A stretch of 64,000 nt of DNA from positions 1,736,001 to 1,800,000 of the forward strand of contig NZ_JACHWH010000001.1 of assembly GCF_014191255.1 (NCBI RefSeq). Direction: 5' to 3'. The stretch is from Amycolatopsis bartoniae (GTDB lineage: Bacteria; Actinomycetota; Actinomycetes; Mycobacteriales; Pseudonocardiaceae). The stretch's first letter is position 1. Every line of letters starts with the position of its first letter. Below the pieces are notes generated by a model. The model saw only the letters and a list, made by a program, of their open reading frames with translations, ran no database searches and was not told the DNA's origin. The translations under genes were made by a program, and so were the position numbers. This document shows positions 26,881 through 58,896 of this stretch, in pieces.

Positions 26881-27115
26881 GCTCTCATCCGAGCCCGGAA
26901 GCTCGAAGCTCGCCGCGACCACTAACGTGCCGACGAAAATTCCCTGGTCAGCCCCGTTGGTAGTCCCGCCGAGGGCACCAACCCGCGCCGCAACCGAGCG
27001 CTCGCAACCGGCGGGTTCATCGGGCACCACCGCTCTTGTGGCGGTGTCGCGCAATCCGAACCGTCGCTGAAAGTCGCAGCTCACGAGGGGCGCGGTCTCG
27101 TGAGGATGCTGTGCG
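26881..27115. other. Spacer between relic and tRNA
   Basis: No supported gene. A minus-strand open stretch (GIFVGTLVVAASFELPG) may be further relic of the inserted element. I find no second copy of the tRNA 3' end that would mark an attachment site. Confidence 0.35.
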
Positions 27116-27189
27116 TGCCCCCGACGGGACTCGAACCCGCACTGAATCGATTTTAAGTCGACTGCCTCTGCCGGTTGGGCTACGGGGGC
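27116..27189 (-). tRNA. Class I tRNA with UAA anticodon (Leu codon UUA; identity uncertain)
   Basis: 74 nt without encoded CCA. Acceptor stem GCCCCCG/CGGGGGC is fully paired with discriminator A. The anticodon stem GTCGA/TCGAT closes loop CTTAAAA, giving anticodon UAA, and the T arm is GCGGG-TTCGAGT-CCCGT. The variable region is only 5 nt (TCAGT). UAA reads UUA, but bacterial tRNA-Leu is class II with a long variable arm, which is missing here. So it is not a normal tRNA-Leu (bldA-type); the amino acid cannot be named from sequence. The gene starts 33 bases beyond the ndh stop, on the same strand. Confidence 0.8.
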
Positions 27190-27221
27190 ACCGCACAGCA
27201 TAATGCGGCGCCCCGGTGACC

Positions 27222-28547
27222 TCAGGACCTGGAGGCCCGCGCGAACTCTTCCTTCGGGTTGTTGATCTGCCCCAGGGAGACGACCTCGCGGCGGAACAGG
27301 CCGCCCAGCATCCAGTCCAGCAGGATGTGGATCTTGCGGTTGAAGGTGGGCATCGCCTTGAGGTGGTAGCTGCGGTGGAACAGCCAGGCGGGGAAGCCCT
27401 TGATCTTCAGGTTCAGCGCGTCGGCCACGCCCTTGTGCAGGCCGAGGCCCGCGACCGCACCGAGGTTCTTGTGGAAGTAGTCCTTCGGCTGGCCACCGCG
27501 GAGCACGCGGATGATGTTGGCCGCCAGCACACGCGCCTGGCGGACCGCGTGCTGCGCGTTCGGCGGGCAGGTGGCCGTCGGGTCCTGCTCCGTGCGCGAC
27601 AGGTCCGGCACGGCGGCGTTGTCGCCCGCCGTCCACACGTCCGGGTGGCCCACGACCTGCAGGGCGGCCGTCGCCTCGACGCGGCCGCGCTTGTCGATCG
27701 GCAGGTCGGAGTTGGCGAGCACCGGGTTGGCCTTCACGCCGGCCGTCCAGATGATCGTGTCGCTGTCGAACTCCGTGCCGTCCGAGAGCACCACGTGCCC
27801 GTTCTCGAACGACTTCGCCGCCGTGGACAGGAACACCTCGATGCCGCGCTTCTCGAGCTGCTCGACCGTCCACACACCCAGCGTCTCGCGGACCTCGGGC
27901 AGGATCCGGCCCGCGGCCTCGACCAGCACCCACCGGATGTCCGACGGGTCGACGTTCTCGTAGTACCGCGTGGCGTCGCGGGTCATGTCTTCGAGCTCGG
28001 CCAGCGCCTCGATGCCCGCGAACCCGCCGCCGACGACGGTGAACGTCAGCAGCCGCTTGCGCAGCTCCGGGTCCAGCGTGCTGGCCGCCTGGTCGAGCTT
28101 CGTCAGCACGTGGTTGCGCAGGTAGATGGCCTCGCCGATGGTCTTGATACCGATGCCCTGCTCGGCGAGCCCCGGGATCGGCAGCAGGCGCGCCACGGCA
28201 CCGAGCGCGACCACGAGCACGTCGTAGTTCAGCTGCTCGATGTGCCCGTCCGCGGCCTCGACCGTGACGGACTTGCGCTCGTGCTCGATCTTGTTGACGC
28301 GCGCCGTCAGCACGTGACAACGCTTGAGGACCCGCCGCAGCGGCACGACCACGTGCCGCGGTTCGATGGCGCCGGCAGCCGCCTCCGGGAGGAACGGCTG
28401 GTACGTCATGTGGGGCTGGGGGTCCACGATCGTGACGGACGCTTCGTTGGCGCGGAGCTTCTTCTGGAGTCCCAGCGCCGTGTAGAGCCCGACGTAACCA
28501 CCGCCCAGGATCAGGATCCGGGTCGGTTCCGACTTCACTGCGGCCAT
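27222..28547 (-). CDS. ndh: Type II NADH:quinone oxidoreductase
   Basis: 441 aa from ATG 28547, 8 bases after GGAGG; an ATG 6 bases earlier is too close to the ribosome site. The FAD motif ILGGGYVGLYTA (about 13-24), NAD motif TVVGGGFAGIEALAEL (about 165-180) and the second FAD-binding TAGDNAAV region (about 300) are present, with a C-terminal amphipathic membrane-anchoring segment (FHRSYHLKAMPTFNRK ... LDWMLGGLF). It transfers electrons from NADH to menaquinone without proton pumping. It is followed by the unusual tRNA. Confidence 0.93.
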   Translation of the reverse strand: MAAVKSEPTRILILGGGYVGLYTALGLQKKLRANEASVTIVDPQPHMTYQPFLPEAAAGAIEPRHVVVPLRRVLKRCHVLTARVNKIEHERKSVTVEAADGHIEQLNYDVLVVALGAVARLLPIPGLAEQGIGIKTIGEAIYLRNHVLTKLDQAASTLDPELRKRLLTFTVVGGGFAGIEALAELEDMTRDATRYYENVDPSDIRWVLVEAAGRILPEVRETLGVWTVEQLEKRGIEVFLSTAAKSFENGHVVLSDGTEFDSDTIIWTAGVKANPVLANSDLPIDKRGRVEATAALQVVGHPDVWTAGDNAAVPDLSRTEQDPTATCPPNAQHAVRQARVLAANIIRVLRGGQPKDYFHKNLGAVAGLGLHKGVADALNLKIKGFPAWLFHRSYHLKAMPTFNRKIHILLDWMLGGLFRREVVSLGQINNPKEEFARASRS

Positions 28548-28658
28548 ACCCATATCCTCCCACTCCCCCGGGCCCGACGCTCGTACCCCCCGGCCAGCTG
28601 TGACCAGGGTCGCCATAGCAGGGCAAAACGATTCAGATCAACTCCGGCGAACCGGCAC

Positions 28659-58819: not shown

Positions 58820-58891
58820 TCCGCCGTAGTGTAATTGGCAGCACTTCAGATTTTGGTTCTGACAGTTCAGGTTCGAATCCTGGCGGCGGAG
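58820..58891 (+). tRNA. tRNA-Gln (UUG anticodon)
   Basis: 72 nt. Acceptor TCCGCCG/CGGCGGA is fully paired, discriminator G. The anticodon arm CAGA-TTTTGGT-TCTG gives anticodon UUG (Gln, CAA). T arm CAGGTTCGAATCCTG. CCA is not encoded. The next gene starts 5 bases after the last tRNA base. Confidence 0.93.
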
Positions 58892-58896
58892 CAGCC

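Follow-up and report, generated by a model that had tools for sequence, protein, structure and literature searches.

The window, a 64,000-nucleotide stretch of the Amycolatopsis bartoniae genome, carries an intact and conserved class I tRNA gene with the anticodon UAA, the only one with this anticodon that we found in the genome. On the features of its sequence, it is very probably a leucine tRNA, predicted to be charged by the one leucyl-tRNA synthetase (LeuRS) found in the genome and to read UUA as leucine. Although a review of non-canonical tRNA structures classes leucine tRNAs as class II and long-armed (PMC7609411), the short-armed tRNA-Leu family to which this gene belongs is widespread in Actinomycetota and is also borne by phages of unrelated hosts. 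Within its lineage, the gene itself is unremarkable; the family departs from the textbook rule and merits description. Presumably, tRNA databases already list short-armed Leu genes. In a full-text search, mostly of papers available without subscription, we found none that described short-armed tRNA-Leu as the usual tRNAs for UUA in Actinobacteria.

The UAA tRNA gene and its surroundings

ARAGORN called a tRNA-Leu(taa) at 27115-27189 on the minus strand, and the Rfam tRNA family RF00005 matched 27116-27189 (58.6 bits, E 4.3e-10). Both calls, and a reading of the sequence, agree with the preliminary description of a complete tRNA with the anticodon UAA and a variable region of 5 nt, which makes it a class I molecule, unlike the long-armed bldA-type tRNAs. 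To its discriminator base, the gene is 74 nt long, and it does not encode the CCA. The features referred to below are as follows.

27116-27189, minus strand: tRNA-Leu(UAA) gene, class I (ARAGORN, RF00005; kept in 19 of 19 genus genomes sampled)
27153-27155, minus strand: anticodon UAA (ARAGORN, anticodon position 35, and reading of the sequence)
27141-27145, minus strand: variable region UCAGU, 5 nt, class I, with U48 as its final base (ARAGORN cloverleaf, column parse)
27164-27180, minus strand: leucine-type D arm (ARAGORN cloverleaf, column parse)
27116-27116, minus strand: discriminator base A73 (sequence, column parse)
27197-27202, minus strand: putative -10 element TATGCT, 7 nt upstream of the tRNA (TA-N3-T box alignment)
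27222-28616, minus strand: upstream neighbour, pyridine nucleotide-disulphide oxidoreductase, NADH-dehydrogenase-like (Pfam PF07992, 141.8 bits)

In the ARAGORN cloverleaf, the acceptor, D and T stems comprise 7, 3 and 5 bp, respectively, while the anticodon stem of 5 bp includes one G-U pair and carries the loop CUUAAAA. Alongside its 3-bp stem, the D arm has C13 and A22 unpaired and the series A14 A15 ... G18 G19 C20 A20a G21, and positions 8-26 are identical to those of the class I tRNA-Leu(CAA) and tRNA-Leu(UAG) of the same genome. Folded alone, the tRNA was more stable than shuffled sequences (z -2.45), of which 2 in 200 were equally stable; its minimum-energy single-strand fold is not the full cloverleaf.

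The tRNA starts 32 nt from the end of the NADH-dehydrogenase-like gene, a name that we take from the Pfam domains of its product, and in most genus loci the 3' end of this gene lies no more than 80 nt upstream of the tRNA. In an alignment of 20 loci (19 from the genus and one from another genus of the family), inspection by eye showed a TA-N3-T box in every locus, 6 or 7 nt before the tRNA, which is thus likely to have its own promoter, with TATGCT as the likely -10 element. Transcription of the tRNA would then start from this promoter, downstream of the NADH-dehydrogenase-like gene. The sole other tRNA gene in the window is a tRNA-Gln(UUG) at 58820-58892 on the plus strand (ARAGORN, RF00005).

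UUA decoding in the genome and the comparison with bldA

The preliminary description had taken the gene for a second, structurally different reader of UUA and had advised that the genome be searched for a class II tRNA-Leu(UAA). In the 7.76-Mb genome (23 contigs, completeness 99.98%), RF00005 found 48 tRNA genes, all of which were read by ARAGORN, and the gene at 27116-27189 was the only one of them with the anticodon UAA. No class II tRNA-Leu(UAA) was found among the 48, and a pattern for long-armed UAA tRNAs had no match in the genome. A second UUA reader was thereby ruled out, and the premise of one was wrong, given that the UAA gene is the sole one among those found. The leucine isoacceptors of this genome are five: UAA, CAA and UAG are class I, each with a variable region of 5 nt, and CAG and GAG are class II, with variable regions of 15 and 16 nt. 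Hence, the earlier premise that a long arm is normal for bacterial tRNA-Leu already fails within this genome for the UAG and CAA species.

That UUA is very rare was borne out. In a 464-kb sample of the genome, UUA made up 9 of 12,024 leucine codons and occurred in 8 of 313 crude gene calls, made by a caller that requires high third-position GC, so that low-GC acquired genes are under-represented and UUA is understated; the codon should be commoner in such genes. Six of the eight UUA-containing genes had a Pfam match (integrase core, subtilase, amidohydrolase, cupin, LytR family and alpha/beta hydrolase), and two had none.

The UAA tRNA shares with bldA of Streptomyces its anticodon, its codon, the rarity of that codon and the position of sole UUA reader found, and is the bldA counterpart of its lineage by codon, drawn from another structural family of tRNA-Leu. 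bldA is class II, with a long variable arm, and its D arm is GGTGGAA/AGACAC. The long-armed UAA tRNAs of the order, also class II, have this D arm as well, whereas that of the class I tRNA in the window is GCCCAA/GGCAGAGGC. That the likeness extends to function, with the UAA tRNA limiting UUA translation and thereby gating late or accessory genes, seems to us improbable. The rarity of UUA and the accessory look of the six UUA genes with a Pfam match would fit such a role, but the gene caller, in favouring genes of high third-position GC, understates UUA, and a review covering 100 actinobacterial genomes argues that the developmental role of bldA may not reach beyond Streptomycineae, nearly all adpA-like genes of other actinomycetes lacking TTA (PMC4255298). 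Most likely, the UAA tRNA serves in the housekeeping translation of a codon that the genome hardly uses; for the altered decoding of UUA genes that had been suggested, our analysis gave no evidence.

Predicted leucine identity

Whether the tRNA accepts leucine or isoleucine had been left unclear. In E. coli, leucine identity is determined by A73 and the tRNA core (A14, A15-U48, G18G19, A20a and D/T-loop contacts), and leucylation requires A73, A15-U48, G18G19 and A20a while the long arm is dispensable, according to the account of these elements in PMC9976931. In the genome studied here, A73, A14, A15-U48, G18G19, A20a and unpaired 13/22 occurred jointly in 5 of 5 tRNA-Leu and in none of the 42 rows for other tRNAs, among them tRNA-Ile and tRNA-Phe. 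The position parse showed that the tRNA-Leu core also has A22 and a three-base 20-20a-21 segment, C-A-G. This element set is that of E. coli, and we infer its relevance to the LeuRS of this genome. One LeuRS was found, on contig C1 at 203217-205988 (TIGR00396, 897 bits). A second LeuRS for the short-armed tRNAs was searched for and none was found; the three remaining loci that matched TIGR00396, more weakly, were ValRS, MetRS and IleRS.

From the full core set of the UAA tRNA and the one LeuRS found, we predict that this enzyme charges the tRNA with leucine. LeuRS would recognise A73 and the core (A14, A15-U48, G18G19 with the T loop, and A20a) instead of the long variable arm, and a single enzyme could therefore serve both architectures, charging the short-armed UAA, CAA and UAG tRNAs and the long-armed CAG and GAG tRNAs alike. 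It is very unlikely that the gene instead supplies an additional UUA reader charged with another amino acid, such as isoleucine, which recodes or regulates UUA genes. The class I shape and A73 are indeed common to tRNA-Ile and others, but no other UAA tRNA was found for an extra reader to be second to, and tRNA-Ile(GAU) of the same genome lacks the leucine features (it has G15-C48, pairs 13 with 22 and differs in its D loop), so that isoleucine was rejected on the core parse. Further, the short-armed and long-armed UAA forms never occurred together among 150 genomes of the order, and a non-leucine identity would thus mean that UUA has been reassigned in much of the order.

Overall identity did not group the short-armed UAA gene with the long-armed ones, and some non-leucine tRNAs were at least as close: outside the variable arm, the UAA tRNA is 0.585 and 0.631 identical to the two long-armed tRNA-Leu of its genome and 0.723 identical to tRNA-Asn. 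The core features were passed by 352 of 388 parsed Leu rows and by 0 of 786 parsed non-Leu rows, in a tally that leaves out unparsed rows (six of them Leu) and is circular for loci fetched by their D-arm pattern, the uncircular test being the genome studied here. Among the 36 Leu rows that failed, 14 had an extra leading base in the ARAGORN call. Four order relatives with short-armed Leu(UAA) departed from the core (L387, L389, L410 and L411), two by A15-C48 in place of A15-U48 and two by U in place of A22, and these variants offer a natural gauge of how strictly the core identity set applies.

Conservation in the genus and the order

In a genus search of 41 genomes (its own and 40 relatives), the gene proved conserved as a full-length copy in 19 of 19 genus genomes sampled, with at least 93% identity and each called Leu(taa) by ARAGORN. 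The possibility raised earlier, that relatives hold only decayed copies, is thus contradicted, as it is by the covariation of the stems. Specifically, among 147 distinct bacterial short-armed Leu(UAA) sequences, fetched with patterns that fixed parts of the D arm and sometimes of the T loop, 2915 of 2940 pair cells were standard, 13-22 was never paired, and 18 of 20 stem pairs showed compensatory two-sided changes. In 71 distinct viral short-armed genes, 1363 of 1420 pair cells formed, and two-sided changes were again present in 18 of 20 pairs. Compensatory changes at this level put the tRNA structure far beyond chance, and they argue that the function of short-armed Leu(UAA) is under selection.

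In four other genus genomes (G004, G007, G014 and G015), the contig with the full copy also has partial 3' copies of the tRNA (positions 29 or 38 to 74) at a distance of about 1 to 4 kb, as expected if integrative elements use the tRNA gene as an attachment site; the window holds no such partial copy. The idea that the gene is a mobile-element relic or a tRNA pseudogene, which these copies might favour if so interpreted, as might the carriage of relatives by phages, is hardly credible and was ruled out by the genus-wide full-length copies, the retained upstream box and the strong stem covariation, in addition to which there is no second copy in the window and no other UAA tRNA was found.

Across the order, a strict short-armed UAA pattern matched in 85 of 150 genomes. 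The raw long-armed UAA pattern matched in 31, of which seven were dropped as chance, their matches not being tRNA-Leu by ARAGORN, leaving 24 genomes with long-armed UAA tRNAs (22 confirmed by ARAGORN and two judged from the matched letters). Of the 41 genomes with neither form, eight were less than 90% complete and stayed outside a retest that allowed up to three mismatches; among the 33 retested, 15 yielded a short-armed UAA tRNA (retrieved and confirmed in 13 cases). A further two, G107 and G135, were ruled out as genomes devoid of any UAA tRNA when another pattern resolved a short-armed one with a variable region one base longer. With the 17 genomes gained by looser patterns, short-armed UAA tRNAs account for 102 of 126 resolved genomes, and for UUA, therefore, the long arm held to be normal in bacteria is not the usual form in this order. 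No short-armed UAA tRNA was resolved in the other 16 of the 33 retested genomes and, since these and the eight outside the retest lack a call, the order-wide picture has gaps. The resolved genomes split by family: the long-armed form occurs in f5, f11, f13 and f15, and the short-armed form in f1-f4, f7-f10, f12 and f16.

The coexistence of short-armed UUA reading with long-armed isoacceptors in those 102 genomes, and with a single LeuRS in the one genome examined, would provide a natural, phylum-scale test of the finding that leucine identity does not need the long arm. It also warns against calling such short-armed genes misannotated or of unknown identity. Further, our results suggest that a bldA-type long-armed tRNA is not the typical UUA reader of the order, which bears on the extrapolation of bldA control to other actinomycetes. 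Small clusters of odd-looking extra tRNA genes were observed at L444, L445, L450 and L451 (G107 and G135) and at L413 (G060), and those at L444, L445 and L413 include short-armed tRNA-Leu with CAG and GAG anticodons; G107 and G135 have long-armed CAG and GAG genes as well.

Relation to other leucine tRNAs

The UAA tRNA has in common with class II bacterial tRNA-Leu of the E. coli type A73, A14, A15-U48, G18G19, A20a and unpaired 13/22, a likeness for which the class II side was read from the two long-armed tRNA-Leu of its own genome. It differs in lacking the long variable arm, with 5 nt where class II has about 10 nt or more, and in its D-stem pair 12-23, which is C-G and not G-C.

Short-armed leucine tRNAs have precedents. 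A mobile tRNA cluster of Mycobacterium mucogenicum includes a tRNA-Leu(UAG) with a short variable loop, reported as additional to a normal long-armed gene (PMC6582537), whereas every UAA, CAA and UAG gene found in the genome studied here is short-armed. Human mitochondrial tRNA-Leu(UUR) also lacks the long arm and is described as taking its identity from A73 and A14 (PMC9976931), but it is organellar, and its charging enzyme is the mitochondrial LeuRS. In M. tuberculosis, tRNA-Leu-2, 3 and 5 are the ones named as having long loops (PMC11541572) and five leucine tRNAs are counted in all (PMC6459853), so that, by implication of these two sources, two would be without a long loop.

Spread beyond the order and possible exchange with phages

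When one genome per GTDB species was scanned, at least 119 stretches matched, and ARAGORN called tRNA-Leu(taa) in 79 of the 80 loci listed. Genera among the matches listed include Mycobacterium, Nocardia, Gordonia, Rhodococcus, Corynebacterium, Microbacterium, Arthrobacter, Cellulomonas, Streptosporangium, Actinomadura and Blastococcus, and Acidimicrobiales are also among the short-armed Leu(taa) matches listed. Metagenome bins assigned to Planctomycetota, Rokubacteria, Chloroflexaceae, Deltaproteobacteria and Acidobacteria were listed too, with binning error possible. In a class-level sample of 158 genomes, 79 had a match to the short-armed pattern (with any leucine anticodon) and 157 to the long-armed one, and thus both arm forms coexist in about half of the sample. 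The short-armed pattern matched in 26 of 159 genomes of a phylum-level sample, composed mostly of lineages far from that of the window, and in none of 5,426 complete E. coli genomes; among plasmid records, it had 10 matches, all Actinomycetota by genus name.

In two of the metagenome-assembled genomes, from Rokubacteria and Deltaproteobacteria (L155 and L173), a short-armed Leu(UAA) immediately follows Gly and Cys tRNAs, in the orders Gly-Cys-Leu and Cys-Leu. This arrangement is that of the long-armed leuZ operon of proteobacteria and suggests in-place replacement or conversion. A Chloroflexaceae contig (L172; 16.5 kb, of which 8 kb was examined) carries an array of 26 tRNA genes, in which a short-armed Leu(UAA) stands alongside long-armed Leu(GAG) and Leu(CAG), and this contig may be viral.

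By distant blastn, 20 phage records matched, some of them duplicates, and five were read in detail. Phage relatives showed 79-88% identity over an aligned 76-100% of the window gene. The same short-armed family as in the window was present as Leu(taa) in Pseudomonas phage ZC03, cyanophage P-RSM6 and Bacillus phage P59 and as Leu(tag) in Enterococcus phage vB_Edu_21C1 and Gordonia phage Phendrix; unlike the window gene, the phage genes adjoin other viral tRNA genes. ZC03 additionally carries a long-armed tRNA-Leu(UAG). An IMG/VR scan gave at least 120 stretches, and the 80 loci listed contain 85 short-armed genes with the anticodons taa (52), caa (17), tag (13), aag (2) and cag (1).

In a tree built from 316 short-armed sequences (178 bacterial and 138 viral), about 30 switches between viral and bacterial labels were counted, against a mean of 103 and a minimum of 92 with shuffled labels; anticodon switches numbered 68, against a shuffled mean of 94 and minimum of 87. 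Our tRNA trees rest on 65 columns and have poor deep support, and in the tRNA tree that placed the leucine tRNAs together, the deep node had support 0.0 and one Cys tRNA fell inside. The switches suggest exchange of short-armed tRNA-Leu between viruses and bacteria, as well as anticodon switching, and a family shared with phages poses the question of which side was donor and which recipient. We offer, as a tentative history that falls somewhat short of being probable, that a lineage of short-armed leucine tRNAs, traded between phages and bacteria, displaced the long-armed reader of UUA, and patchily those of UUG and CUA, over much of Actinomycetota. The phylum would then charge two architectures with one enzyme, and the bldA lineage of Streptomyces would have kept the long arm. 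In Enterococcus phage vB_Edu_21C1 (L485), an annotated tmRNA adjoins the short-armed tRNA-Leu(UAG).
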